In this document: positions 3-14,535 of the stretch, piece by piece
How the letters are laid out: each line of letters opens with the position of its first letter
How positions within the stretch are numbered: position 1 is the stretch's first letter
Notes under the pieces: generated by a model
Database searches by the model: none
Told to the model about the DNA's origin: nothing
What the model saw: only the letters and a program-made list of their open reading frames with translations
Made by a program: the position numbers and the translations under genes
Assembly: GCA_934307335.1 (NCBI GenBank)
Contig: CAKRCL010000044.1
Coordinates: 1-14,647 of the forward strand
DNA: 14,647 nt
Source of the DNA: an uncultured Dorea sp.
GTDB taxonomy: Bacteria; Bacillota; Clostridia; Lachnospirales; Lachnospiraceae
Direction: 5' to 3'

Positions 3-680
3 ATAGTCTGCTCCACACTTACAAATCATGTGAAAGCAGCACAGAAAAAAATGAATACAAATTATCCAATTATTGAACTGGATAATTCTAAGCATAGCAG
101 ACCGGAAAAATTCTGGCAGTTGGCGTTTCTTGCCATGGAACAACTTCCGAAGGAAATAGATACCGTGCTTTTGGGACTGGGAGTTTGTGGAGGGTCATCA
201 GTAGGATGGACTTTCCCAAGGCGGACAATTATGCCAAAAGTTGATGATTGTATTACACTTTTAATGCATACGGACGAAAAGTTTCATTACAACTTAAAAG
301 AAGCCGGACATTTTTATTTGACTGAAAACAGAGATTTGATGTCTATTGAACAGATGAAACAAGATTTAGTTTTAAAGTATGGTGAAAGAAGAGCCAAAAG
401 AGTTATGAAAGTCTGGTTTGATTCCTACAAGAGTGTAGATATTGTGGATACGGGTGTTTATGATTGTTATTCAAAAGAATATGTAGAGCGTGCAAAAAGA
501 GAGTCTGCAATTATAAATGTGCCATATCAATATGTGCCGGGAAGTAATATTATACTGGAAAAATTAGTGTCTGGAAAATGGGATGACCAATTTTTGATTA
601 TTGAAAAGGGAGGTGTAATGACAGAAGAAGATTTTGGAATGACAAATAAAGAGTCATTGTATACAACGTATGTTGTGTAA
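3..680 (+). CDS. DUF1638 family protein, 5' end missing (partial at window edge)
   Basis: The frame is open to the left edge, so the gene starts outside the window. The GTG at position 30 is not a convincing start: the residues before it, reading IVCSTLTNHV, look like the normal N-terminus of DUF1638 proteins, which begin with a Cys-x-Thr-Leu segment. Other family-like blocks are LLGLGVCGGSSVGW (glycine-rich, around nt 165-210), GHFYLTENRDL, and a C-terminal stretch GSNIILEKLVSGKWDD followed by FLIIEKGG. The biochemical role of DUF1638 is not settled to my knowledge, but such genes commonly sit beside corrinoid-dependent methyltransferases, and here the next gene is a MtaA-like enzyme 78 bp downstream. 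I infer a role linked to corrinoid methyl transfer. Family assignment is from recalled motifs, without a profile search. Confidence 0.78.
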   Translation: MVCSTLTNHVKAAQKKMNTNYPIIELDNSKHSRPEKFWQLAFLAMEQLPKEIDTVLLGLGVCGGSSVGWTFPRRTIMPKVDDCITLLMHTDEKFHYNLKEAGHFYLTENRDLMSIEQMKQDLVLKYGERRAKRVMKVWFDSYKSVDIVDTGVYDCYSKEYVERAKRESAIINVPYQYVPGSNIILEKLVSGKWDDQFLIIEKGGVMTEEDFGMTNKESLYTTYVV

Positions 681-758
681 AAAGGACACCATATTTAAAA
701 TTTGGGACGTAGACTTTTGGAGTTTTACTATGTTCCCAATTGAGAAAGAGAGGAAGTT

Positions 759-1895
759 ATGGATTACACAGAATTAAAGAAATTAATGAGTGAGCAGAAG
801 GTTGAGATGACTGCAGCAGAGCGTATCAAGGCCTACAACGAGGGAAAAGAGGTAGATCATATCCCGTATACGTTACAGGCGCCTGATCCGGCTATGGCAG
901 ATATTTTTGGATTCACAACATCACAATTTGCGAAAGACTTTGAAGTGAAAAGTGAAGTGATCAGACGAAGAAAAGAAGAATTTGGTCTGGATAGTTTTAA
1001 TGTTGGACTAGGTCTTCGCACAATTGGCGTTGCGCTTGGTTCAAAGTTAGGGGTTCCTGAACATGGAATTGATTATATTGAGCATCATGTGTTGCAGGAT
1101 TATGCGGATTTTGACAAACTGGAAGTGACAGATCCTTATAAAAATCCGGTGCTTGCACCGATTTTGGAAAGTGCTAAGAGATTAAAAGAACGTTTTCCGG
1201 ATGTTAGTATGACAACGAGTGTGGCAGGGCCGATTTCAACGGCTATAGCAGTCAGGCCGGTTGAAAAGGTTCTTCGCGATACGAGAAAGAATCCGGAAAT
1301 GCTTCACAAATTGCTTGATTTGACAGTTGTCTGTTCTTTAAAATGGTTTGAAGCATTTTATCATGAGTTCGGATCGGTCGGAACGAATTTTTCGGATCCG
1401 GTAACCTGTATGGACGTAATTAGCAAGAAGCAGTTTGATGAATTTTCCCTCCCTTATATTAAAAAACTGATTGATGGAACAGAGAAAATTATGGGATCAA
1501 GACCTGGAGCTCATATTTGTGGTAAGACAAGCCCTATCTGGAGTGATCTTGCAGATGCAGGTCTATTTTCATTCAGTATCGATAATTGTGAGGATTTGGA
1601 GGTTGCTAAGCGTGAGGTGGGTGACCGGATGCGTTTTGCAGGAAACGTTCCGCCAATCGAAGTGATGAAAGATGGATCGATTGATGATGTCATTGAGGCA
1701 TGTAAAGACTGTCTGAGAAAATGTGGAGACAATCCGAAAGGATACATTTTGAACACAGGATGTCAGCTTCCGATCGGTACACCAAAGAGAAATGTAGAGG
1801 CATTTATCTATGCAGCAAGAAAATACGGCCGTGGTGCGCAGTTAGGAAAACTCCCGAAGGGTATTTTAGAAGATGAAAGTATGCAATTTGTGTAA
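759..1895 (+). CDS. Uroporphyrinogen decarboxylase (URO-D)/MtaA-type corrinoid methyltransferase
   Basis: 378-residue cytosolic enzyme of the URO-D superfamily, most like the MtaA/MtbA/CmuA group that moves methyl groups between a corrinoid protein and a thiol or other acceptor. The zinc-binding set of that group is present: His252 and Cys254 in HICGKT, and Cys335 in NTGCQLP. True HemE enzymes lack this set, so heme synthesis is unlikely. Further family-like segments are SVAGPISTA (154-162) and GTNFSDPVT (208-216). The ATG is preceded by an AGAGGAAG ribosome site at 5-6 bp. It lies 78 bp after the DUF1638 gene and probably shares its transcript. No corrinoid protein or substrate-specific methyltransferase is in the window; they may lie upstream. 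The actual methyl donor and acceptor cannot be read from the sequence. Confidence 0.85.
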   Translation: MDYTELKKLMSEQKVEMTAAERIKAYNEGKEVDHIPYTLQAPDPAMADIFGFTTSQFAKDFEVKSEVIRRRKEEFGLDSFNVGLGLRTIGVALGSKLGVPEHGIDYIEHHVLQDYADFDKLEVTDPYKNPVLAPILESAKRLKERFPDVSMTTSVAGPISTAIAVRPVEKVLRDTRKNPEMLHKLLDLTVVCSLKWFEAFYHEFGSVGTNFSDPVTCMDVISKKQFDEFSLPYIKKLIDGTEKIMGSRPGAHICGKTSPIWSDLADAGLFSFSIDNCEDLEVAKREVGDRMRFAGNVPPIEVMKDGSIDDVIEACKDCLRKCGDNPKGYILNTGCQLPIGTPKRNVEAFIYAARKYGRGAQLGKLPKGILEDESMQFV

Positions 1896-2107: not shown

Positions 2108-3337
2108 ATGAAGCAAAAGAAAAAAATGTCTTTGGCAATGCAGATTTTTATTGCACTGATTCTTGCAATTGTTGCAGGTCTTATGTTGCAAAATCATGCA
2201 GAATTTGCTGAAAGTTATATTAAACCATTTGGAACCATTTTTCTAAATTTAGTAAAATTTATTGTAGTTCCGATTGTATTATTTTCAATCATGTGTGGAA
2301 TCATTTCTATGCAGGATATTAAAAAAGTAGGTGCTATTGGTCTTAAGACGGTGATCTACTATATGTGTACAACAGCATTTGCGATTACATTTGGATTGAT
2401 TGGGGGAAATCTGTTCAAGGGAATGTTTCCGGTAGTTGCAACGACAGATTTGACTTATGAGGCAACAGAATCGGTATCATTTATGGATACAATCGTGAAT
2501 ATTTTTCCGTCTAATTTTATTGCACCGATGTCGGAATCTAACATGCTTCAGGTTATTGTGATGTCAGTATTGTTTGGATTTGCAATTATTTTAATTGGAC
2601 CGGAAAAAAATCCAAGACTTATTCAAGGATGTAATGATTTGAATGACATGTTCATGAAATGCATGGAGATGATTTTGAAATTATCTCCAATTGGAGTATT
2701 TTGTTTGTTATGTCCGGTCATTGCTGTGAATGGTCCGATGATAATAGGCTCATTGGCAATGGTACTTCTTGCGGCATATATTTGTTATTTTATTCATGCA
2801 GTTGTTGTATATTCTATTGCAGTGAAAACAATGGGTGGCATGAGTCCACTTCAGTTCTTTAAAGGAATGCTTCCGGCAATTATGTTTGCATTTTCTAGTG
2901 CATCCTCTGTAGGAACACTTCCGATCAATATGGAATGTGTAGAAGGAATGGGGGCATCAAAAGAGGTTACATCTTTTGTACTTCCTCTTGGAGCAACGAT
3001 TAATATGGATGGGACAGCTATTTATCAGGGAGTCTGTGCAATCTTTATTGCTTCCTGTTATGGAATAAACCTGACTCTTCCGCAGATGTTGACAATCATT
3101 TTGACAGCAACACTTGCATCTATTGGAACAGCAGGTGTACCGGGGTCTGGAATGGTCATGTTAGCAATGGTGCTTACATCTGTAGGACTTCCGGTAGATG
3201 GAATTGCGCTTGTAGCAGGAGTAGACCGTATTTTTGATATGGGACGAACAACTGTGAATATTACAGGTGATGCAAGTTGTTGTGTAGTAGTAACAAATCT
3301 TGAAAAAAAGAAAGAATTAAGAAAGAAACATTCATAA
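2108..3337 (+). CDS. Dicarboxylate/amino acid:cation symporter (DAACS, glutamate/aspartate type)
   Basis: 409-residue polytopic membrane protein of the DAACS (GltP/DctA) family that couples uptake of acidic solutes to Na+ or H+. Signature segments occur in the right order: serine-rich hairpin-1 tip SSASSVGTLP (263-272), the cation-site motif INMDGTA (298-304), hairpin-2 GVPGSG (343-348) and the TM8 motif from Asp373 to Asp388. In TM8 the positions matching GltPh Asp390, Asp394, Arg397, Thr398, Asn401 and Asp405 are Asp373, Asp377, Arg380, Thr381, Asn384 and Asp388. Retention of the Asp394 equivalent (amino-group binding) and Arg397 equivalent (side-chain carboxylate) favours glutamate/aspartate over plain C4-dicarboxylates. 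Length is normal. It has its own promoter and terminator, so it is probably monocistronic. Cation choice is not decided by the sequence alone. Confidence 0.92.
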   Translation: MKQKKKMSLAMQIFIALILAIVAGLMLQNHAEFAESYIKPFGTIFLNLVKFIVVPIVLFSIMCGIISMQDIKKVGAIGLKTVIYYMCTTAFAITFGLIGGNLFKGMFPVVATTDLTYEATESVSFMDTIVNIFPSNFIAPMSESNMLQVIVMSVLFGFAIILIGPEKNPRLIQGCNDLNDMFMKCMEMILKLSPIGVFCLLCPVIAVNGPMIIGSLAMVLLAAYICYFIHAVVVYSIAVKTMGGMSPLQFFKGMLPAIMFAFSSASSVGTLPINMECVEGMGASKEVTSFVLPLGATINMDGTAIYQGVCAIFIASCYGINLTLPQMLTIILTATLASIGTAGVPGSGMVMLAMVLTSVGLPVDGIALVAGVDRIFDMGRTTVNITGDASCCVVVTNLEKKKELRKKHS

Positions 3338-3512: not shown

Positions 3513-3541
3513 TTGACTTTCTTAATCCTAAATGCTATATT
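3513..3541 (+). promoter_or_regulatory. Sigma-A promoter of the cobalamin-riboswitch operon
   Basis: TTGACT (3513-3518), a 17-bp spacer and TATATT (3536-3541) preceded by TGC, giving an extended -10. The predicted start at about 3548 lies 20 nt before the riboswitch aptamer, as expected for a riboswitch leader. Confidence 0.7.
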
Positions 3542-3567
3542 TGATGTAGAAAAAATATGATGTAATA

Positions 3568-3757
3568 AACGTTCGGTGCTGTTTTAAAGAAGACAGGTAA
3601 AAGGGAAACGGGTGCAAAGCCTGTACGAACTCGTCACTGTGAGTAAATGCATAAAATCAAGTGCTGTATCATAATCTGAAAGGTACGGCACAGCCACTGG
3701 AAAACTGGGAAGGTGATCTTATGTATGATTTACAAGTCAGGAAACCTGCCGATCGTT
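3568..3757 (+). ncRNA. Cobalamin riboswitch aptamer
   Basis: The conserved blocks of the cobalamin riboswitch appear in order: CGGTGCT (3574-3580); AAAGGGAAACGGGTGCAAAG within 3599-3620; CACTGTGAG (3636-3644); a side hairpin GTGCTGTA / TACGGCAC (3661-3668 and 3684-3691); AGCCACTGG (3692-3700); GGGAAGG; and the B12 box AGTCAGGAAACCTGCC at 3735-3750. The closing helix pairs AACGTTCGG (3568-3576) with CCGATCGTT (3749-3757), with one mismatch. Known members bind adenosyl- or methyl/hydroxocobalamin and switch off uptake and synthesis genes when the cofactor is plentiful. The exact cobalamin form preferred is not evident here. Confidence 0.95.
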
Positions 3758-3820
3758 GGTGCGGGGATGAAGATTCCAGATCACGAGTAATTGATTGTGC
3801 CGAAATATGTAAGGAACAAG

Positions 3821-3857
3821 AAATCTTTTACTTTTAAAAGTAGAGGATTTTTATTTT
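3821..3857 (+). terminator. Riboswitch expression-platform terminator
   Basis: A 13-bp stem (3821-3833 with 3838-3850, two G-U wobbles, loop TTAA) is followed by the T-rich run TTATTTT. It lies 64 nt after the aptamer and 62 nt before the start codon, so it can cut off transcription before the operon. GAAGATT at 3769-3775 is complementary to AATCTTT in its left arm and is a plausible antiterminator strand. Confidence 0.8.
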
Positions 3858-3919
3858 CGTGTAAATAATTCTTAATAATTCCCAAATTACAAAGAAAAAC
3901 GGAATAAGGAGAGAAAAAG

Positions 3920-6900
3920 ATGAAGAGAAAAAGTGCAGGCTTTTTAGCCGGAGTGCTGGTTGCGTCTATGGTGGCAACACCTTTGTCTTATGCGAACGTA
4001 TACGCAGAAGATCAGGATGCGACGGGTATTGTGCAGCAGGAAACAGAAGAAGTGTCAAGCGATACTGGTCATGCACAGGAAGAAAGTACAGATGTTAAAG
4101 AGGAGAGTAAAGAAGAATTAAAAACAGAAGAGAATATAACATCTGAACAGCCGGAAGATAATGCTGGTGTACTGGAAACTGAGGCAGGTAATCCGGAAAC
4201 GGAGATATCTCAGGGCTCACAGATGACAGAGGCGGAAACGAAGGTGACAGAGACACCGGTTCAGCCGACAGTAGATATTGACGGCGTAAAGGTATTGAAA
4301 AATGATGGGAGCGAGTATGGAATGTTCCCGGTTGTTGTTGACAAAATGGAAGTGAAAGATGATCAGGTTAAGGTTTCATTTCACACAGGAACTAAAAAAG
4401 TTTTTGACTGGTTGTATTTAGGACCGGTAACTGATACAGAAAAAAATAATTATATAGTAGGAAATAACACAGGAAGTACTTGTGAATTTTCTATAAGTGT
4501 ACCATTATCAAAAGCGAACAGTTGGATTCCGATAGCTGTTGGACGTTCTGATAAAGGTACCTGGAGTGATAATTATCTCTGGATGAGTATTCCGAATCCT
4601 GAAGAACCTGTGATTAATTCTCAGCCACCGTCTACAGAACAAAAAACAGATGAAGACGGAAAAGGTGATGGTGAAAATTCCGGCAACAATAGTACAGAAG
4701 ACAATGCATATATAACTAAAAACGATATTCAGGCTATTTATGCCAGTGATGATATTAAAAAGCCGGGACAGGCATATTCGATGATTAAGATTGCCGAGTC
4801 AGAAGCAAAGATTATAGGAGATAAGATTCAAGTATCTATCTGGGTGAAACCAGCAAGCAGTGGAAACTTTACATATGATGCAATTTATATCGGGCGAAAA
4901 GATGATGCAGAAAAAAATCCATTGGTTATGGGAGAAGTAGATAGTGTAAAAAATCTGGAAAAATTTACATTTGAAGTTCCAAAATCCATGGCGGGAGGAG
5001 AAGTGCATTTTGTTCCGAGAAAGAAAAAAGATGGAACATTTAGCACAAATAATTCCCTTGCATTAAAAATACCTGCTTTAGATGCATTTAAAAAGCAGAC
5101 AGAGGTTGTAATTCAATCACAGCCAAAAGATGTAATTGCGAAGAATAATACACAAGTATCCCTTACTGTTGTGGCGAATGGTGATGAGAGTGTTAAATTA
5201 AATTATCAGTGGCAATATAGTGTAGATGGGACAAGTTGGACAGACTGTGATGGAATCAGCGCAAAGACAAATATATACACATTTCAGATGGCAATAGATA
5301 AAATCGGACAATATCGTTGTATCATATCTGATTCTAATGGAACAACTGTAACTTCTGATGTTGCAAAAGTGGAAAATCCATCTGCGCCGACTGTAACGGG
5401 CAGCAAGGTTCAGGTTGTCAAGGCTGATGGCAGTGCATTTAAGATGTTTGTGGTAAATGAGTCAAAAGTTCAGAAAGATGGAGATAATTTAGAGATTACA
5501 ATTTCGACCAAGAATGTATCTTTTGATAAATTATATCTGGGAGAAAAAGAAGATATAATCAAGAATTCAGTTGTAAAAGGAACTGAGTTGGCAGATGGAG
5601 GATATACATTCACATTTCAAGTGCCGGTATCATACAGGGGAAAGGTTCTTCCGGTTACATTAGGAAAAGTGGATGGAACTTGGTATAATAAGCAGGATCT
5701 TTGGATCTATATTCCAGATGAGGGAATTGAAAGTATTCCAACTGCTACTGATGAAGTGAAGGCGATTGCCGGAGGTACAGGAAGTGCATATAATGATTTT
5801 GTGATTGTTTCTTCGAAAGCAGCATTGCACGGAGAGAATATTCGTATGACGTTAGATGTGAAAGGAAACAAGTGGACAAAAATTTATCTTGGAGTACAGG
5901 CAGATACGGATAAGACACCGGTTTATAAAGGAACTTATGATTTAGAAAAAAATGTAACAACCTTCATATTTGATATACAGGCTGAAAAACAGGGAATGAA
6001 CATTGCAATTACACCTGGAAATGAAAATTGGTTTACCTGGGCAAGAGATTTGTTCATAAACATTCCGAATCTGGAGAACAGAGTAAATACAACTGCAGAA
6101 GGTGTATACAATTTATATGGTTCGGCTTATCCGACTACAAATTCATATAGTTTGAATTTTGAGAGAGAAAGTAGTGTTTCTATAAGTGGAGATCAGGCTA
6201 CTGTTACTTGGGTGACACAGGCTGGTCTATATGACAGATTATATATCGGTAATACGGTGGATTCTGAAGAAGTAAAGGAAGCAAACGCGATTGTACCACA
6301 AGACCGCTCGGACATTGCAAGTGGATATAAGAGTTTTACTTTTACAATGCCAGTATCAGAACTTGGAAAAGAATTCAGTTATTCTGTACGCACAGTAAAA
6401 ACAGGTGAGTGGTCAACGAAAGATGCAAGAGCATTTATTAATGGAATTCTTGAAAAAACAGGAGAATTACCGGATCCAACACCAGATCCAAATCCGGGAG
6501 TAGTAGTTCCGGCAGATGGAATCTATAAAGTAAATAATGTCGTATCTAGTTCAGGCATGTTTCGTGTAGTAGGATGCACGTTGACGGTCAAGAATGGTAA
6601 GATGAGTGCAGTATTGACTTTGAGCGGCACAGGATATGATTATTTGTATCTTGGAACAAAAGAAGAGGCTGCAAAAGCAGACAAGTCTTTGTGGGTTCCT
6701 TTTAAAGAAGATAACAATGGAAAATATACTTATACAGTACTGTTGGAGTCTTTAGATAAAGAAATTGCAGTAGCAGCATTTTCACATAATAAGCAGAGCT
6801 GGTATGACAGAACTCTTGTTTTCCATTCAGACAGTCTGGAAAAGATTGGTGATATCAGCAATGGGGGCAATGGTGGAACAAACGGAGGCAGTACGACTCC

Positions 6901-8329
6901 ATCCGGATCTAATAATGGATCTATTTTAAAACCGAATGATGGAAAAGTAGAAAATGAATCTAAATATGAAGCTGATACAAGTGGTGCGACAAGTAAGGTA
7001 AATAGTTCTACCGTATTGGCAGATGGTGTATATACACCTGATCGTTTTACCTGGTCTGGTGGAACCGGAAAAGTTAAAATTTATTGTAATAAGATTACCA
7101 TTCAGAATGGCCAGGCATATGCGACATTGGTATTTGACAGTGATCATTATCAGTATGTCAAAGCAAATGGAAATACATATTATACATCAAAAGGTGGCGG
7201 AACAGCGACTGTTACGATTCCGATCGCATTGAATCAGAATAATAAAATTCTTGGTATGACGGATAAAATGTCTGTAGCACATGAAATTGAGTATACGATC
7301 TTTGTTTATCTGGCAGCAGCTGGAAATGGAACAACCTTGGGAGGAGCATCGGCTAATAAACAGTTAGATGAGAAGGCACCTGAGATTATGGGATTGGAAT
7401 ATCAGTCAGAGACACAGCTTGATTATGCAGAATATTTCAAGATATATCACTATGATCAGGGGATTATACTTGTTGAGATTGATATGACAAAAGGAACTGC
7501 AAATGATCCGGAAAAACTGGCAGCAGAAGCTATCAATTCGGATCCTGCGACAAGTGAAAAGAAAGATGCCGCTAAAGATACAAAAGCAGATAAGAATACC
7601 GCAAAAGAAGATACATTTGCTGTCGAAACTGCAGAAGATGGAGAAGAGAATCTGAATGGTATCAGTAAAGAAGAGCTGGCAACAGAACTTTATAAAGGAA
7701 ATGTTGTAAAATATCTTCTTGTCCCGGAAGGAGTTGAGGTTCCGGTAGGTCTTGATCAGGATATGATTGTAGTACAGAAACCTGTAGACAAAATATATAC
7801 ATCTACAGAAGACATTCTTGAGAAAATGGATGAACTTGGACTGACAGACAATGTTGTAGCTATCGGAGATAAGAAAAAAGATTGTAAAGTTGATTCAATC
7901 GTGAAAAAGATGGATAAGAAAGATGGAGAAGATAAGGCTCAAGTTGTCTATGGTGGAAAAGAAGAGAAACCGGATTTCAAGACACTGGTAAAACAAGAGA
8001 CTAATCTTGCAATTCTTTCGTCTGACATTCTTCCAAAAGAGGAAGATATCACGGATCTTGAGGAGAAGCAGAAAAAAGATGATAAATTGACTGTAGAGGA
8101 ACAGACGGAGCGTTTCCGGCAGATGACAGAAAAATTTGCATTGCTTGGAATTCCGGTAATCGTAGATCGCTCTGAGGATGAGCAGACGGAGCTGGCAAAA
8201 CGTGAGTGGATTAAAATTTACGGTGTACTGTTCGGATGCGAAGATGAGATGAATGAGTTATTTGATCAGGCAGTCAAAGATGCCGGCGATGATGCATTAG
8301 CTCAGGTCAGAACTCAGGCAGAAGAGTAG
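3920..8329 (+). CDS. Giant secreted repeat protein with C-terminal binding-protein-like lobe
   Basis: 1469 residues; start chosen by AAGGAG 9 bp upstream. Residues 1-29 form a signal peptide (basic start, hydrophobic core, likely cleavage after VYA). Then come: a Glu-rich linker (30-115); beta-rich repeats at about 118-226 and 268-386; an Ig-like domain at 396-487 with Trp431 and Tyr465-Arg-Cys467; repeats at 496-600, 611-718, 727-842 and 864-972; a Pro-rich linker (851-860); a Gly/Ser/Asn linker (977-1002); a divergent repeat (1033-1134); and 1155-1452, homologous to residues 57-250 of the next protein. The repeats share a central LYLG/IYIG motif and most end in a Trp-containing strand. They resemble NEAT-type tetrapyrrole-binding domains, but I cannot confirm that. 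No LPxTG, SLH or final membrane helix is seen. The cobalamin riboswitch and the adjacent importer suggest extracellular capture of corrinoid; substrate and fold are inferences. Confidence 0.8.
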   Translation: MKRKSAGFLAGVLVASMVATPLSYANVYAEDQDATGIVQQETEEVSSDTGHAQEESTDVKEESKEELKTEENITSEQPEDNAGVLETEAGNPETEISQGSQMTEAETKVTETPVQPTVDIDGVKVLKNDGSEYGMFPVVVDKMEVKDDQVKVSFHTGTKKVFDWLYLGPVTDTEKNNYIVGNNTGSTCEFSISVPLSKANSWIPIAVGRSDKGTWSDNYLWMSIPNPEEPVINSQPPSTEQKTDEDGKGDGENSGNNSTEDNAYITKNDIQAIYASDDIKKPGQAYSMIKIAESEAKIIGDKIQVSIWVKPASSGNFTYDAIYIGRKDDAEKNPLVMGEVDSVKNLEKFTFEVPKSMAGGEVHFVPRKKKDGTFSTNNSLALKIPALDAFKKQTEVVIQSQPKDVIAKNNTQVSLTVVANGDESVKLNYQWQYSVDGTSWTDCDGISAKTNIYTFQMAIDKIGQYRCIISDSNGTTVTSDVAKVENPSAPTVTGSKVQVVKADGSAFKMFVVNESKVQKDGDNLEITISTKNVSFDKLYLGEKEDIIKNSVVKGTELADGGYTFTFQVPVSYRGKVLPVTLGKVDGTWYNKQDLWIYIPDEGIESIPTATDEVKAIAGGTGSAYNDFVIVSSKAALHGENIRMTLDVKGNKWTKIYLGVQADTDKTPVYKGTYDLEKNVTTFIFDIQAEKQGMNIAITPGNENWFTWARDLFINIPNLENRVNTTAEGVYNLYGSAYPTTNSYSLNFERESSVSISGDQATVTWVTQAGLYDRLYIGNTVDSEEVKEANAIVPQDRSDIASGYKSFTFTMPVSELGKEFSYSVRTVKTGEWSTKDARAFINGILEKTGELPDPTPDPNPGVVVPADGIYKVNNVVSSSGMFRVVGCTLTVKNGKMSAVLTLSGTGYDYLYLGTKEEAAKADKSLWVPFKEDNNGKYTYTVLLESLDKEIAVAAFSHNKQSWYDRTLVFHSDSLEKIGDISNGGNGGTNGGSTTPSGSNNGSILKPNDGKVENESKYEADTSGATSKVNSSTVLADGVYTPDRFTWSGGTGKVKIYCNKITIQNGQAYATLVFDSDHYQYVKANGNTYYTSKGGGTATVTIPIALNQNNKILGMTDKMSVAHEIEYTIFVYLAAAGNGTTLGGASANKQLDEKAPEIMGLEYQSETQLDYAEYFKIYHYDQGIILVEIDMTKGTANDPEKLAAEAINSDPATSEKKDAAKDTKADKNTAKEDTFAVETAEDGEENLNGISKEELATELYKGNVVKYLLVPEGVEVPVGLDQDMIVVQKPVDKIYTSTEDILEKMDELGLTDNVVAIGDKKKDCKVDSIVKKMDKKDGEDKAQVVYGGKEEKPDFKTLVKQETNLAILSSDILPKEEDITDLEEKQKKDDKLTVEEQTERFRQMTEKFALLGIPVIVDRSEDEQTELAKREWIKIYGVLFGCEDEMNELFDQAVKDAGDDALAQVRTQAEE
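4271..7321 (+). repeat. Seven diverged beta-domain repeats within the giant protein
   Basis: Each unit is about 100-120 residues. Central motifs are WLYLG (164-168), AIYIG (321-325), KLYLG (537-541), KIYLG (654-658), RLYIG (773-777) and YLYLG (908-912); the seventh unit has YQYV (1077-1080). Units 1, 3, 4, 5 and 6 then carry a Trp-containing strand near their end, such as WYDRTLVF or WSDNYLWMSI. Units differ too much at DNA level to be recent copies. An Ig-like domain separates units 2 and 3. Confidence 0.7.
7382..8275 (+). other. Half binding-protein domain (N-lobe only) fused to the giant protein
   Basis: Residues 1155-1452 align with residues 57-250 of the lipoprotein encoded next door. 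In the block 1264-1300 versus 91-127, 19 of 37 residues are identical (shared YL, VPEG, GLD, QxPV and IY). The block REWIKIYG also matches TEWIKVYG. The counterpart of the lipoprotein's C-lobe (about 251-400) is absent. A low-complexity acidic/Lys insertion at about 1190-1258 interrupts the match. Confidence 0.85.
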
Positions 8330-8342
8330 AGGAAAAAGTAAC

Positions 8343-9545
8343 ATGAAGAAAAAAATGTATAAAATTACAGCAATATTGTTAGCCGGAGCTCTCCTTTTAG
8401 GAGGCTGTGGCTCTACAAAGGGCAGTTCGGGAAGTACTGGTTCGACTGCCCAGACTACCTCTGAAAAAAATACGGATACGTCTAAAAAAACTCAGGCACC
8501 GAAGATTGACGGACTGACTTATGAATCTACCATGGATTTGACATATGCCCAGGAGTTTGATGTGTTTTATTACAAAGAAGGTTACAAACTTATTGATGTG
8601 CATGAAGGGCGTCAGTATCTGATCGTGCCGGAAGGAAAAGAAGCACCGGAAGGATTAGATGAAAAGATTATAGTAATTCAACAGCCGGTTCAAAATATTT
8701 ATATGGCAGCTACAGCAATTATGTCACTGTTTGATGCATTGGATGCAATCGATACTGTGAAATTTTCTGGCTTAGAGGCTTCCGGCTGGTATGTGGACGG
8801 TGCAAAAAAAGCGATGGAAGCTGGAACTATGATATTTGCAGGAAAATATAGTGAACCGGATTATGAGAAGATTGTAGATGGAGATTGCAAACTGGCAATC
8901 GAATCTACGATGATACTTCATTCGCCAAAGGTTCAAGAGATGATTGAGGATCTGGATATTCCAGTGTTTGTGGATTATTCCAGTTATGAATCTCATCCAC
9001 TTGGAAGAACAGAGTGGATCAAAGTATATGGTGCAATGTTAAATAAAGAAGAGAAAGCAACAGATTTTTTTGAAGATCAGGCAAAAGTTGTTGAAGATTT
9101 AAAAGATTTTAAGAATACTGAAAAGACGGTGGCATATTTTTACATCAGCACAGATGGCTCCGTAGTGGTTCGTAAATCAGATGATTACATTCCGACTATG
9201 ATCGAGATCGCAGGTGGAAGATATGTGTTCAAGGATCTGAAGAATTCAGAGGGGAATGCACCATCTGTAAAAATGACGATGGAAGAGTTCTATGCGACAG
9301 CAGTAGATGCAGATTATCTCATTTACAATGGAACCATTGACGGGCAGGTGAGCAGTCTCAGTGATCTGGAGGCCAAGAGTAATCTGTTTGCAGAATTTAA
9401 GGCTGTGAAGGATGGAAATGTATGGTATACAGGTAAGAACTTATATCAGGCGACAGATACAGTAGGAGAGCTGATTTCGGATATTCATCTGATGATCACA
9501 GAAGGAGATGCCACTCAGATGACATTCCTTGAAAAGATGGAGTAA
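8343..9545 (+). CDS. Lipoprotein ABC-transporter solute-binding protein, FhuD/BtuF-like
   Basis: 400-residue receptor of a FecCD-type importer. The signal peptide ends in lipobox LLGGC with Cys22 as the lipidated residue, so it is tethered to the outer face of the membrane. A Ser/Thr-rich linker (23-50) precedes a two-lobe binding domain: N-lobe about 57-215, backbone helix about 218-250 including HPLGRTEWIK, and C-lobe about 258-400. By alignment with BtuF, Glu175 and Glu314 sit where permease-docking glutamates are expected. The gene starts 13 bp after the giant protein's stop and 36 bp before the permease start chosen here. The upstream riboswitch points to cobalamin or another corrinoid as ligand. 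Iron-siderophore or heme receptors share this fold, so the ligand is inferred from regulation. Its N-half is paralogous to the end of the giant protein. Confidence 0.88.
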   Translation: MKKKMYKITAILLAGALLLGGCGSTKGSSGSTGSTAQTTSEKNTDTSKKTQAPKIDGLTYESTMDLTYAQEFDVFYYKEGYKLIDVHEGRQYLIVPEGKEAPEGLDEKIIVIQQPVQNIYMAATAIMSLFDALDAIDTVKFSGLEASGWYVDGAKKAMEAGTMIFAGKYSEPDYEKIVDGDCKLAIESTMILHSPKVQEMIEDLDIPVFVDYSSYESHPLGRTEWIKVYGAMLNKEEKATDFFEDQAKVVEDLKDFKNTEKTVAYFYISTDGSVVVRKSDDYIPTMIEIAGGRYVFKDLKNSEGNAPSVKMTMEEFYATAVDADYLIYNGTIDGQVSSLSDLEAKSNLFAEFKAVKDGNVWYTGKNLYQATDTVGELISDIHLMITEGDATQMTFLEKME

Positions 9546-9581
9546 AAAGATAGGTAAAATATAGAAAAACTGGTGAGAAAT

Positions 9582-10646
9582 ATGCAGGATAAGGAAGTAA
9601 AAGAGGAACAGTTAAGTTTTCATAATGAAAATTTCAAAAAAAGATCCAGATATACATTTGTGTTTGTGTGTATGATCGCAGCATTTTTTGTCATTACAGT
9701 GCTGAATATTAATACGGGAAATGTACATATTTCTGTGCCGAAGATTTTGAGAATATTATTTTTGCGTGATGGAGAAGCGGTAGAGTACAGTATCATATGG
9801 AAGATACGTCTCCCGCGTATCTTCATGGCAGCGTTACTGGGCGGAGCATTGTCTCTGTCCGGTTTCTTATTACAGACATTTTTCTCAAATCCGATCGCAG
9901 GACCATTTGTACTTGGAATTTCTTCTGGAGCGAAGATGGTTGTCGCACTGACTATGATTGTATTTTTAAAATATGTAGGACATTTTTCATCTTACACACT
10001 GGTAGCGGCAGCATTTATCGGTTCACTTATATCGACAGGATTCATTCTTTTGATGTCAAAGAAGATTCATCATATGGCATCCCTTTTGGTAGGAGGAATC
10101 ATGATTGGATATATCTGTTCCGCAATTACAGATTTTGTGGTGACATTTGCAGATGATTCAGATATTGTAAATCTTCATGGATGGTCACAGGGAAGTTTTT
10201 CTGGTATGAGCTGGGGAAATATAAAAGTAGCAGTGGTTGTAGTTGGAATTGCAGCAGTGTGTACATTTTTACTGTCAAAACCAATCAGTGCATATCAGCT
10301 TGGGGAAGCATATGCACAGAGTATGGGAGTAAATATTAAAGTATTCCGAGTTGTTATTATATTACTGTCAAGTATTCTTTCTGCGTGTGTGACTGCATTT
10401 GCCGGACCAATTTCTTTTGTGGGAATTGCAGTTCCATTTCTTACAAGAAAAGCGTTCGGAACATCAAAACCGATTGTGGTGATACCGGGTACATTTTTTA
10501 TAGGGGCTGTATTCTGTATGATCTGTGATCTGATCGCTCGTATGGCACTGGCACCGGTGGAGCTGAATATCAGTACAGTCACATCGATACTTGGCGCACC
10601 GATTGTCATCTATATGATGGTGAAGCGCGAGAAAGGAAGAATGTAA
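9582..10646 (+). CDS. FecCD-family ABC transporter permease (BtuC-like)
   Basis: 354 residues from the ATG at 9582, which has GGTGAG four bases upstream. An in-frame GTG at 9573 would add three residues but has a poor ribosome site. The protein is a typical polytopic FecCD permease: RLPR (76-79), NPIAGP (103-108), WSQGS (201-205), the cytoplasmic coupling segment around LGEAYAQSMGV (240-250), and GPISFVGIAVPFLTR (275-289). Arg76 and Arg79 in RLPR and Arg320 in IARMAL match BtuC Arg56, Arg59 and Arg295, the residues that meet the binding protein's glutamates, so both docking sites are kept. It forms the membrane channel, probably as a homodimer, for the substrate delivered by the adjacent lipoprotein. 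Only 1 bp separates its stop from the ATPase start, which implies translational coupling. Confidence 0.93.
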   Translation: MQDKEVKEEQLSFHNENFKKRSRYTFVFVCMIAAFFVITVLNINTGNVHISVPKILRILFLRDGEAVEYSIIWKIRLPRIFMAALLGGALSLSGFLLQTFFSNPIAGPFVLGISSGAKMVVALTMIVFLKYVGHFSSYTLVAAAFIGSLISTGFILLMSKKIHHMASLLVGGIMIGYICSAITDFVVTFADDSDIVNLHGWSQGSFSGMSWGNIKVAVVVVGIAAVCTFLLSKPISAYQLGEAYAQSMGVNIKVFRVVIILLSSILSACVTAFAGPISFVGIAVPFLTRKAFGTSKPIVVIPGTFFIGAVFCMICDLIARMALAPVELNISTVTSILGAPIVIYMMVKREKGRM

Positions 10647-10647
10647 C

Positions 10648-11724
10648 ATGGCAGATTATTATTTTAAAATGGATGATATGGCTGTCGGCTACCAGGGAAA
10701 GACGCTGATCCATGACATTAATATTGGTATTAATAAAGGTGAAATTGTAACGCTCATTGGCCCCAATGGATCCGGTAAATCTACAATTTTAAAGAGTATT
10801 ACAAAACAACTGAAGTTAATTGGAGGAAAGGTGTTCTTCGATGACACGTCCCTTCAGGAAATGTCTTATAAAGAGTTGTCTTCTAATATGGCAGTTGTTT
10901 TAACAGAACGAATCAAGACGGAGCTTATGACCTGTCATGAGATTGTGGCAACAGGACGTTATCCATATACAGGACGGCTTGGAATATTAACATCGGAGGA
11001 TGAACGAATCGTGGATGAGGCCATGAAGTCAGTTCATGCAGAAGACCTTGGAAACCGCGATTTTAATGCTATTAGTGATGGACAAAAACAGAGAGTTTTG
11101 CTGGCAAGAGCAATCTGTCAGGAGCCGGAGATTATTGTGCTGGATGAGCCTACGTCTTTTTTGGATGTACGATATAAACTGGAATTACTTGCAATATTGG
11201 AACGTATGGCAAGAAAGAAACATATTACTGTCATTATGTCACTACATGAGATTGATCTTGCACAGAAAGTATCGGATAAGATCATCTGTGTGAAGGGAGA
11301 TACCATTGCACATTATGGAAAGCCTGAAGAGGTCTTTAAAGAAGATACGATTCGCAATCTTTATGAGATTGACAATGGTTTTTTTGATCCGGTATTTGGA
11401 AGCATAGAGCTTCCGAAGATAGAAGGAGAACCAGAGGTATTTGTAATCTCGTCCGGTGGAAGTGGAATTCCAATTTATCGACAATTACAGAAAGAGCATA
11501 TTCCATTTGCGGCAGGAATCCTTTATAAGAATGATATTGACTATCAGCTTGCAAGACTTCTGGCAGTGGAAGTGATTACAGAAGAACCATTCCGGCAAAT
11601 CAGTGATGAGACATTTGCAAGAGCAGTCGAAGTGATGAAAAAGTGTAAGAGAGTCATTGTAACAGATGTGCCGGTGGGCGAATGTAATAAAAGAATCGAA
11701 GAATTAATAAAATTAGTAAAATAG
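10648..11724 (+). CDS. FecE/BtuD-type ABC transporter ATPase with C-terminal extra domain
   Basis: 358 residues. The first 240 or so are a complete nucleotide-binding domain: Walker A GPNGSGKST (38-46), signature ISDGQ (142-146, Gly to Asp relative to LSGGQ), Walker B IIVLDEP (162-168) with catalytic Glu167, and H-loop His200. The usual Q-loop glutamine is replaced, by my alignment, with Glu87 in VVLTERI. Residues about 262-358 form a further domain rich in alternating hydrophobic and charged segments, including SSGGSGIPIYR (268-278). It is not the CbiZ amidohydrolase sometimes fused to B12 ATPases as far as I can tell; its function is unknown. The ribosome site GAAAGGAAG lies inside the permease gene's end. 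It energises import of the substrate handled by the preceding genes. Confidence 0.92.
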   Translation: MADYYFKMDDMAVGYQGKTLIHDINIGINKGEIVTLIGPNGSGKSTILKSITKQLKLIGGKVFFDDTSLQEMSYKELSSNMAVVLTERIKTELMTCHEIVATGRYPYTGRLGILTSEDERIVDEAMKSVHAEDLGNRDFNAISDGQKQRVLLARAICQEPEIIVLDEPTSFLDVRYKLELLAILERMARKKHITVIMSLHEIDLAQKVSDKIICVKGDTIAHYGKPEEVFKEDTIRNLYEIDNGFFDPVFGSIELPKIEGEPEVFVISSGGSGIPIYRQLQKEHIPFAAGILYKNDIDYQLARLLAVEVITEEPFRQISDETFARAVEVMKKCKRVIVTDVPVGECNKRIEELIKLVK

Positions 11725-11853: not shown

Positions 11854-12831
11854 ATGAAGAATAAGCAGATAATCGGTCTGGTTGTAGCAGGTGCTGTGTT
11901 TATTGTAACAGGAGCAGTCAGTGTCTTTACGAATACATTATCAGCCCATGCACTGGCAGAAGATATAACGACAATATTATCTGGTGATCTGGAGTTTGAT
12001 CCGCCGGGAGAAGATTATATTGGAGTTGTGAATGTAGTAGGAACGATTCAGGAGCAGACGCAGAGCAGTGTATTGGATACATCAACTGGATATCAGCACA
12101 ATACGACAATGGACTATATTGATAATTTGATGGAGGATTCGGATAATAAGGGAATCTTATTATATGTAGATTCTCCGGGTGGCGCAGTTTATGAGTCGGA
12201 GGAACTTCATGATAAGTTGATGGAGTATAAAGAGACAACAGGAAGACCAATTTGGACATACATGGCACATTACGCAGCATCAGGCGGATATATGACATCT
12301 GTTACAGCAGATAGAATTTATGCGAATAAGAATACTGTAACGGGTTCTATCGGAGTCATTATGTCGGGATATGACATGAGTGGACTGTATGAGAAACTGG
12401 GAATTCGTTATGTTAGTATCACAAGTGGTGTGAATAAGGATAGTTCCAAGATGACAGATGAGCAGGTTGCAATTTATCAGTCTCAGGTTGATGAATGTTA
12501 TCAGGAGTTTGTAGATATTGTAGCAAAAGGACGTGATATGTCTGAAGATCAAGTGAAGGCACTTGCAGATGGACGTACTTATACAGCCAAACAGGCAAAG
12601 GCAAACGGACTGATTGATGAGATTGCAACATATGAAGATATGACAGAACAGATGTCAGATGAACTTGGAGTGGATGAATTCTATGCACCAAGTTCAGAGG
12701 GGAATATACTGGCAACTTTGTTTGGCAAGGCAAAAGAGCTTGTTCCGAAATCTGAGGCACAGATTCTTAAGGAAACTGCCCAGGAGAAGGAAAGCGGGGT
12801 GCTGATGTATTATGCAGAACAGTTACAGTAA
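11854..12831 (+). CDS. sppA: Signal peptide peptidase SppA (short Gram-positive type)
   Basis: 325-residue S49-family serine protease that degrades remnant signal peptides in the membrane. One N-terminal membrane anchor spans about 7-27. The catalytic domain shows VVGTI (61-65), the oxyanion-region DSPGG (106-110), nucleophile Ser143 in YAASGGYM, GSIGVIMSGYD (164-174), and general-base Lys195 in SGVNKD. This Ser/Lys dyad matches the Bacillus enzyme. Length is close to Bacillus SppA and about half that of the E. coli protein. GAGGAG lies 7 bp before the ATG. The last 20 bp overlap the start of the RDD gene, the same gene pairing as sppA-yteJ in Bacillus subtilis, where YteJ (SppI) inhibits SppA. 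Product and dyad are read directly; the regulatory partnership is inferred from synteny. Confidence 0.94.
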   Translation: MKNKQIIGLVVAGAVFIVTGAVSVFTNTLSAHALAEDITTILSGDLEFDPPGEDYIGVVNVVGTIQEQTQSSVLDTSTGYQHNTTMDYIDNLMEDSDNKGILLYVDSPGGAVYESEELHDKLMEYKETTGRPIWTYMAHYAASGGYMTSVTADRIYANKNTVTGSIGVIMSGYDMSGLYEKLGIRYVSITSGVNKDSSKMTDEQVAIYQSQVDECYQEFVDIVAKGRDMSEDQVKALADGRTYTAKQAKANGLIDEIATYEDMTEQMSDELGVDEFYAPSSEGNILATLFGKAKELVPKSEAQILKETAQEKESGVLMYYAEQLQ

Positions 12832-13507
12832 TGAGAATTATGCGGGATTTTGGGTTCGCTTTGCAGCATATATAATTGACAGTATTATAGTGATGGCCGG
12901 ACTTTTATTTGTACGTCTTGCATGGCTTGGCATTGGAGCTATGATCAGTGGCACGATATTAGGTGGCAATGTATTGTTTCATTATTCTCTAAAAGATATT
13001 GTACTATATATTTTTAAGGTCATGTACTTTATATTGTTGACCTGGTGCACAGGCACAACTGTCGGCAAGAGATTGATGAATCTTCGAGTTGTTCCAGCTG
13101 ACAGAAGTCAGAAGCTGTCTTTTGTGGATGTGTTATATCGTGAGACTGTTGGAAGATTCCTTTGTGGAATTTCCATTTGGATCGGATATATTGTTATTGG
13201 TGTTGATAAAGAAAAACGAGGCTTTCATGATATGCTTTGTGACACAAGAGTGGTCTATGAGAAGAAAGTGAAAGTATATCCGGAGCATTCAGGTCAAACA
13301 CCGTATTCAGGTCAAACATCGTATTCAGGTCAAACACCGTATCCGGCCCAGACGCCGATTTCGCAACAGCCATTGCCTTCACAGCAGGAAAGTAAGCAGT
13401 ATAGAGCTGTACCGGATGGTGGATATAGCTTTGCAGATGAAAATGTAGTAGGCAAGGCGGAAGTAAAAGAAACTATAGAAGATAATATACAGGAGGAAGA
13501 TTTATAA
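12812..13507 (+). CDS. RDD-family membrane protein, candidate SppA partner/inhibitor (YteJ/SppI-like)
   Basis: 231 residues. The RDD domain begins at once with [17 protein letters not shown] (10-26), carrying the expected Arg and Asp, and includes three or four membrane helices up to about residue 132, with [14 protein letters not shown] (71-84) and [18 protein letters not shown] (131-148) as further family blocks. After it comes a hydrophilic tail with three near-identical [12 protein letters not shown] units plus a degenerate fourth, a Gln/Pro-rich stretch, and an acidic end. The ATG at 12812 lies inside sppA; no other in-frame start fits the RDD domain. Synteny with Bacillus yteJ suggests it controls SppA protease activity; the Bacillus protein is reported to act through its C-terminal end, so the odd tail here is of interest. 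Confidence 0.82.
13286..13357 (+). repeat. 18-bp in-frame tandem repeat in the RDD gene tail
   Basis: Units start at 13286, 13304 and 13322, each 18 bp and differing by one or two bases (core TTCAGGTCAAACA); a fourth unit at 13340-13357 is diverged. Each unit encodes six residues of the form Y-S-G-Q-T-P. Such tracts can change copy number by slippage without breaking the frame. Confidence 0.9.
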
Positions 13508-13509
13508 TT

Positions 13510-14535
13510 ATGAAACGTCAGGACTTTTATTATGACCTGCCAGAGGAATTAATCGCGCAGGATCCGCTTGAGGATCGTTCCAGCTCCAGACTTCTGGTTC
13601 TTGATAAGGAGACAGGAACTACTTCACATCATATATTTAAAGAGATTACAGGATATCTGAAAGAAGGAGACTGTCTGGTCATCAATGATACAAAGGTAAT
13701 TCCGGCAAGATTAATCGGCGTGAAGGAAGGTACCGGAGCAAAGATAGAGATACTTTTGTTAAAGAGAAAAGAGAATAATATCTGGGAGACACTTGTAAAA
13801 CCTGGTAAAAAGGCAAAAGTTGGTACTAGGATTATATTTGGAGAAGGACTTCTTGTTGGAGAGGTCGTAGGAATAGTGGAAGAAGGAAACCGTCTGGTGA
13901 AGTTTGAATATGACGGTATCTTTGAAGAAGTATTAGACCAACTTGGTCAGATGCCATTACCGCCATATATTACACATCAGCTGGAAGACAAGAATCGTTA
14001 TCAGACGGTATATGCGAAACATACCGGATCAGCAGCAGCACCGACGGCAGGACTTCATTTTACACCAGAACTTTTACAGGAGATTGAAGAAAAAGGAATC
14101 GATATTGCGAGAGTTACACTTCACGTTGGACTTGGAACATTCCGTCCGGTAAAAGTAGATGAGATTACAGATCATCATATGCATTCTGAGTTTTATCAGA
14201 TTGATGAAGAGGCGGCTGAGAAGATTAATCGTGCAAAAGATTCCGGACACAGAGTAATCTGTGTTGGAACAACAAGCTGTAGAACGGTTGAGTCAGCGGC
14301 AGATGAGACTGGACATTTAAAACCGACAAGTGGCTGGACTGAGATATTTATCTATCCGGGATATAAATTTAAGATTTTAGATGGATTAATCACGAACTTC
14401 CATTTACCGGAGTCAACATTGATTATGTTAGTATCAGCACTGGCAGGAAGAGAACATGTATTGGCAGCATATGAAGAAGCAGTACAGGAAAGATATCGTT
14501 TCTTTTCTTTTGGAGACGCTATGCTAATTATATAG
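13510..14535 (+). CDS. queA: S-adenosylmethionine:tRNA ribosyltransferase-isomerase QueA
   Basis: 341-residue cytosolic enzyme that transfers and isomerises the ribosyl part of S-adenosylmethionine onto 7-aminomethyl-7-deazaguanine at tRNA position 34, giving epoxyqueuosine. The family N-terminus is clear: [18 protein letters not shown] (6-23) and SRLLVLD. Further hallmarks are [14 protein letters not shown] (56-69), GQMPLPPYI (145-153), [18 protein letters not shown] (167-184), [10 protein letters not shown] (204-213) and a C-terminal block ending [10 protein letters not shown]. Length is normal and the frame is intact. It starts 2 bp after the RDD gene's stop; AGGAGG at 13491-13496 is 13 bp from the ATG, a long spacing, and no better start is present. 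It shares the sppA transcript and ends at the terminator 45 bp downstream. Other queuosine genes are not in the window. Confidence 0.97.

Follow-up and report, generated by a model that had tools for sequence, protein, structure and literature searches.

A cobalamin riboswitch-led operon joining a chain of NEAT-like domains to a FecCD importer, with a B12-pathway tetrapyrrole as possible cargo

Gram-positive bacteria take up heme through Isd systems, in which domains of the NEAT fold occur in series and are accompanied by a class III receptor and a FecCD permease; NEAT domains are binders of heme and hemoproteins. The BtuFCD system has a FecCD permease and an ATP-binding cassette (ABC) ATPase and is linked to the cobalamin riboswitch. 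A third system, Iht/FetB, is Gram-negative, heme-linked by name, and includes an exported CbiK-family protein; we take FetB (PDB 9b86) to belong to the Iht operon of Porphyromonas gingivalis, and we know of no NEAT chain in this system. Here we describe an operon in a 14,647-nucleotide stretch of an uncultured Dorea sp. genome (contig CAKRCL010000044.1; 'the window' denotes this whole stretch) that shares the components named above with Isd and BtuFCD, and whose relatives share the exported CbiK-family protein with Iht/FetB. We are highly confident of its architecture, a B12-switched NEAT relay joined to a FecCD importer. More tentatively, and with not quite even confidence, we propose that it carries a B12-pathway tetrapyrrole for building corrin, by an Isd-type surface relay under the cobalamin riboswitch. 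As defining features of Isd and of BtuFCD were sought in the window and not found, we class the system as neither, though Isd-like in its working; the relay logic itself would apply by analogy with Isd.

The initial annotation of the window had recognised a promoter, a complete cobalamin aptamer and a terminator ahead of four tandem genes, encoding a large secreted repeat protein, a lipoprotein receptor, a FecCD permease and an ATPase (Table 1). The aptamer is indeed complete: it matches the full RF00174 model (positions 1-189) and scores 88.5 bits where the gathering score is 31.5 (cmscan, E 3.6e-21). It lies 152 bp ahead of the four open reading frames (ORFs), whose tandem arrangement behind one riboswitch is borne out by Pfam matches and by gaps of 13, 27 (36 if the permease begins at a later ATG) and 1 bp. 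The riboswitch and gene set follow directly from the computation. A promoter-like site is present but is weak evidence, since shuffled sequences contain a mean of 1.7 such sites by chance. The putative terminator, a 15-bp hairpin with a T-rich tail, is more stable than shuffles (z -2.64) but is absent from the list of a consensus scan that demands three G-C pairs.

The giant protein, whose Sec signal peptide was judged by eye, contains seven homologous domains (weakest E 2.7e-12) according to a hidden Markov model (HMM) seeded with one repeat and grown on relatives. Its description as a repeat protein therefore holds, but had missed the NEAT-like nature of the repeats and the half receptor at the C-terminus. 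The NEAT beta-sandwich fold is found in two of the domains and extends to the other five by homology. The NEAT identity of the last domain is visible only through structure and profile-profile comparison, as neither a profile nor a single-sequence search of the PDB gave a NEAT match for it. No Pfam or NCBIfam model reaches its cut-off on the giant, of which a single immunoglobulin-like (Ig-like) stretch matches in the PDB; the Pfam NEAT model (PF05031) does not match it at E<=1, short of the gathering score, while 12 of 41 related domains match at E<=0.1 and the relative P0121 passes the gathering score (33.6 against 32.8). In heme-binding NEAT domains the first tyrosine of the YxxxY motif is the iron ligand. 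This residue is histidine in domain 7, where HxxxY is found in 88 of 96 domains of the same type, and alignment places lysine at the ligand position in domain 6. The window operon differs from Isd in both respects, as well as in its cobalamin riboswitch, in the half receptor fused to its chain, and in lacking an LPXTG-type motif: the final 60 residues contain none, here or in the other listed NEAT and CbiK ORFs (NPQTN-type motifs were not searched).

The half receptor shares 32% identity with the product of the next gene, the lipoprotein receptor, and its model matches the N-lobes of BauB and CeuE; the second lobe (Peripla_BP_2) is not present at the giant's C-terminus. A joint model of the half receptor and NEAT domain (predicted template modelling score, pTM, 0.78) suggests that the two may pack as a single unit, which would be an unusual and testable hand-over device. 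Lys/Glu-rich stretches within the half receptor (window about 7490-7670 and 8045-8110), which include low-confidence parts of the structure model, differ in length among strains, and the giant itself ranges from 1469 to 1543 residues across the window, P0001, P0002 and P0088. The 120 homologues listed of 1615 add no diversity (97%, then 88-91% identity), the single named entry among them being from an uncultured Dorea. A scan of viral_contigs with the giant found no relative, and plasmid records gave three distant matches that served as a starting point for the whole family.

The regulation of the operon points to cobalamin, and its proteins to a flat tetrapyrrole. The pairing of a large exported protein with a FecCD importer stands, but the label 'BtuCD-like' is not supported in its strict sense: BtuC is the best named model for the permease (209.8 bits, below the cut-off of 334) and is among its nearest solved relatives, but the receptor gives no match to the BtuF model at E<=0.01. 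The ATPase, whose best NCBIfam match is the corrinoid ATPase PRK09536 (residues 7-348, 204.7 bits against a cut-off of 537), has a C-terminal domain that, with the NEAT chain, further distinguishes the system from BtuFCD. The receptor has only two named transport relatives: the heme receptor IsdE, at 28.5 bits where the NCBIfam cut-off is 298.65, far higher, and the PDB entry Lmo2184, which presumably takes heme. This closeness, the NEAT fold, and the naming of the CbiK homologue FetB as heme-binding would suit import of heme or an iron-porphyrin by an Isd- or Iht-like system merely wired to a B12 switch. We consider this improbable, given the cobalamin riboswitch and cbi neighbours, the loss of the first tyrosine of YxxxY, and the link to CbiD described below. 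Heme in place of B12, which the initial annotation had named as an outcome that would undo its proposal, is thus seen in the fold and not in the regulation, and its interpretation as a whole is partly supported.

Relatives were gathered on the strength of their receptor sequence, without regard to riboswitch or NEAT domains, and the best 80 of at least 481 loci were compared. NEAT-like domains are found in 73 of the 80, lying outside the receptor's own gene chain in L029, L037 and L061. Two layouts dominate: a NEAT chain with half receptor followed by receptor, permease and ATPase, as in the window, and CbiK followed by a NEAT pair, receptor, permease and ATPase. A riboswitch model (R1) built from 11 Rfam-found aptamers gave 64 matches in the window and L001-L082. 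Fourteen of the 80 loci are unscorable, since they start at the head of the operon or close to it; of the 52 scorable loci having a permease, 44 have a riboswitch no more than 1.5 kb from the first gene, so that the co-occurrence across Lachnospiraceae proposed as a check of the initial annotation is supported. A same-strand riboswitch lies further upstream or overlaps in L012, L043, L066 and L076, and the permease loci L030, L036, L037 and L077 have none by R1. Among 14 loci in which no permease was found, three have a riboswitch, L064 has one further upstream, and the other ten have none. A Roseburia plasmid encodes, behind a riboswitch, a single protein that combines CbiK with two NEAT domains. 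In E. eligens a riboswitch precedes the receptor, with CbiC, CbiD and further cobalamin genes downstream and no NEAT domain in the stretch read.

Two side observations concern these loci. Those last ten, in which neither a permease nor a nearby cobalamin riboswitch was found, include L016, L027, L033, L047, L048, L050 and L055, where NEAT and an entire receptor form one fusion. In L001 (6076-6245, minus strand) the interval from riboswitch to CbiK gene holds a TwoAYGGAY RNA (123.5 bits) in the opposite orientation. The reading of the giant as a random adhesin was dropped in view of the 73 loci with NEAT-like domains.

The association with corrin synthesis was surveyed in 150 Lachnospiraceae genomes, of which the 53 matching a domain-7 profile were counted as carriers. 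CbiD was matched in 87, HemC in 66, HemB in 47 and SUMT, over cut-off, in 69; precorrin-2 dehydrogenase, with some match in 149, was counted in the 71 with E below 1e-15, a threshold of our own choice. CbiD is present in 52 of the 53 carriers versus 35 of the 97 non-carriers, and the NEAT system occurs in one of the 63 genomes without CbiD, a near confinement that also differs from BtuFCD. All four earlier enzymes (HemC, HemB, SUMT and the dehydrogenase) are missing from 24 of the 87 CbiD genomes, and 21 of these 24 are carriers, compared with 27 of the 57 that have HemC, SUMT and the dehydrogenase (p 0.001); the remaining six have mixed enzyme sets. NEAT lies within 20 kb of CbiD in 14 of 52 genomes, 11 of the 14 lacking all four enzymes. 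For 20 of the 21 enzyme-less carriers (G084 was left out), up to 20 kb around CbiD was read, placed to cover nearby NEAT: ten have a CbiK near CbiD, each bearing, like the exported kind, a long extension at the N-terminus (one sequence is truncated there), and no short CbiK was found in these stretches. These counts indicate that the NEAT system tracks corrin synthesis, most closely where the first steps are missing. The relatives thus suggest a system that gathers ring-shaped B12 building blocks, and not B12 alone. An 'auxotroph scavenger' reading was rejected, CbiD being present in 27 of 29 carrier genomes.

The CbiK proteins of the relatives, whose export was likewise judged by eye, have chelatase motifs in 41 of 45 ORFs. 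In P0121 the CbiK model PF06180 scores 240 bits, and 'Heme-binding protein FetB' (PDB 9b86) matches the CbiK part at E 3.6e-36. A second riboswitch-led operon, encoding a long, exported-kind CbiK and a single NEAT-like protein, is found at loci L144, L153 and L158 of genomes that also have the giant-type operon, followed in L144 by a pair of ABC exporter-like genes.

According to the tetrapyrrole model, low B12 would switch the operon on, and the exported NEAT-like chain, presumably at the cell surface, would bind a flat tetrapyrrole outside the cell. The end formed by domain 7 and the half receptor would hand the ring to the lipoprotein receptor, for import by the FecCD permease and ATPase. 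The cargo would perhaps be sirohydrochlorin or cobalt-sirohydrochlorin, which in many relatives an exported CbiK could load or hold, and the window's species would be expected to behave as these relatives do. The most specific version, an unreported uptake of (cobalt-)sirohydrochlorin in which an exported cobaltochelatase loads the ring, His-ligand NEAT-like domains relay it and the FecCD importer feeds corrin synthesis, is in its entirety unlikely.

Several findings weigh against the tetrapyrrole model. CbiK is not in the window operon; a separate riboswitch-led CbiK-NEAT operon occurs in three of the five giant-type genomes examined (G001, G003 and G004; not G002 or G005), and three exported CbiKs score 193-231 bits against an NCBIfam CbiK cut-off of 400. 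SUMT is over cut-off in 12 of 15 genomes with a giant-type operon, including the two nearest by receptor, so that many of these need no imported sirohydrochlorin and a precursor need is not demonstrated for the window itself. All four enzymes are missing from G057, G067 and G132, yet these lack the NEAT system. The survey p values are too small because related genomes share history; the CbiD tree is poorly resolved, and the precursor link corrected for kinship rests on three pairs on supported branches. Calls of absence hold only as far as the genomes used are complete. Finally, the gene for the corrinoid adenosyltransferase BtuR directly follows the ATPase gene in L006, L015 and L023 and is separated from it by one gene in L079, an arrangement that fits corrinoid import.

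Corrinoid capture, in which the NEAT-like chain would bind cobalamin, other cobamides or cobinamide, the importer would have drifted from BtuFCD and the domain-7 histidine would be a cobalt ligand, is possible, if doubtful. Besides these BtuR genes it would account for the cobalamin riboswitch at most scorable operons, the change from tyrosine to histidine at a metal-ligand position and the best named model of the ATPase, though the ATPases of NEAT-free importers match this model as well. It leaves the exported CbiK unexplained; also against it are the want of a BtuF match and the near absence of the NEAT system from genomes without CbiD, though these stand to gain most. Twenty such genomes were tested and 13 have cobalamin riboswitches, 16 in all; three of 15 readable stretches downstream (L129, L133 and L134) encode NEAT-free FecCD importers whose ATPases are short. 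Carriers G001, G004 and G005 have a second riboswitch-led FecCD importer, also without NEAT, whose permease best matches a 'putative F420-0' model below cut-off. FecCD import under a B12 switch is therefore possible without NEAT, and the L129, L133 and L134 importers, with the presence of CbiD in nearly all carriers, weaken the corrinoid substrate first proposed. However, these importers are not proven for B12 either, as their receptors score 94-109 bits with the BtuF model (cut-off 234) and higher with TIGR04281, that of L129 also scoring higher with IsdE (116 bits). Their loose likeness to BtuF makes the tetrapyrrole model slightly weaker and corrinoid capture slightly stronger. Elsewhere, giant ORFs of 2187-2312 residues (L150:221-6781, L135:93-7028 and L127:482-7066; two cut by the stretch end) lie directly behind cobalamin riboswitches and match DUF4430 (PF14478) at 109.5, 27.9 and 17.1 bits, the last under the cut-off of 23.8. 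We take DUF4430 to be a transcobalamin-like domain, and it is perhaps these giants that truly capture B12; CbiD is absent from the genomes of two of the three.

It is also conceivable, although very improbable, that CbiK and the NEAT-like proteins take up or carry cobalt, with the tetrapyrrole only a carrier (a cobaltophore). CbiK and NEAT pairs lie near 280-residue ATPases of CbiO size in L012, L037 and L061 (probably CbiO), and the CbiD link would fit. Genomes without ring synthesis could not make such a carrier, and a tetrapyrrole exporter is not demonstrated.

Genomes with corrin genes but without early tetrapyrrole steps, primarily Firmicutes, have been described (PMC6461909), and three such salvagers were tested, with 5-aminolevulinate; the portion of that paper available to us names no importer for them. 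The survey genomes share this pattern, 24 of them lacking later steps too. Among the matches listed in the open PMC literature, no title or abstract start connects NEAT proteins with uptake of corrinoids or sirohydrochlorin. A Listeria study found with 'NEAT domain' and 'cobalamin' ties NEAT to heme in its gene table (PMC5736727, in part), and a Dehalobacter study describes corrinoid operons under a cobalamin switch, the word 'CbiK' being absent from its main text (PMC4285132, in part). A B12-switched NEAT relay would extend these domains to another tetrapyrrole and would serve Gram-positive gut bacteria for capture at the surface, a role similar to that of BtuB/BtuG. In the most specific version of the tetrapyrrole model it would also be the missing route to cobamides for many Lachnospiraceae of the gut that lack the early steps of tetrapyrrole synthesis. 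Were the cargo a B12 precursor, this would explain the ring source of the salvagers, as far as PMC6461909 describes them, and tetrapyrrole trading would join the gut vitamin economy.

Table 1. Features of the operon and its 5' region, in window coordinates.
Feature	Position	Strand	Evidence
Sigma-70-type promoter-like site, TTGACT-17-TATATT	3513..3541	+	consensus scan, 10/12 matches
Cobalamin riboswitch aptamer, RF00174	3557..3767	+	cmscan 88.5 bits; own model R1 131.8 bits (window is one seed of R1)
15-bp hairpin and T-rich tail, candidate terminator of expression platform	about 3819..3852	+	RNA fold
Exported multi-NEAT-like protein, 1469 residues	3920..8329	+	ORF; domains by family HMM
NEAT-like domain 1, residues 121-224	4280..4591	+	family HMM, E 1.1e-16
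NEAT-like domain 2, residues 280-376	4757..5047	+	family HMM, E 8.3e-13
Ig-like domain, residues about 396-485	5105..5374	+	phmmer, PDB 9d7z Ig-like protein, E 8.1e-6
NEAT-like domain 3, residues 500-592	5417..5695	+	family HMM, E 5.1e-16
NEAT-like domain 4, residues 617-718	5768..6073	+	family HMM, E 2.7e-12
NEAT-like domain 5, residues 738-834	6131..6421	+	family HMM, E 4.7e-13
NEAT-like domain 6, residues 865-974	6512..6841	+	
NEAT-like domain 7, residues 1034-1130	7019..7309	+	H1121 and Y1125 replace YxxxY
Class III binding protein, N-terminal lobe only, residues 1152-1451	7373..8272	+	substrate-binding protein HMM, positions 21-240 of 392
Lipoprotein substrate receptor, Peripla_BP_2	8343..9545	+	Pfam 121 bits
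FecCD-type permease	9573..10646	+	Pfam 255.5 bits
ATPase with C-terminal extra domain (about residues 250-358)	10648..11724	+	ABC_tran 105 bits

Upstream of the operon and on the same strand, window positions 3-1895 encode a DUF1638 protein and a relative of the MtaA/CmuA-like (URO-D) corrinoid methyltransferases, followed by an SDF-type symporter (2108-3337). Downstream (11854-14535), Pfam identifies an S49 peptidase, an RDD protein and a queuosine-synthesis protein, seemingly unrelated to the operon.
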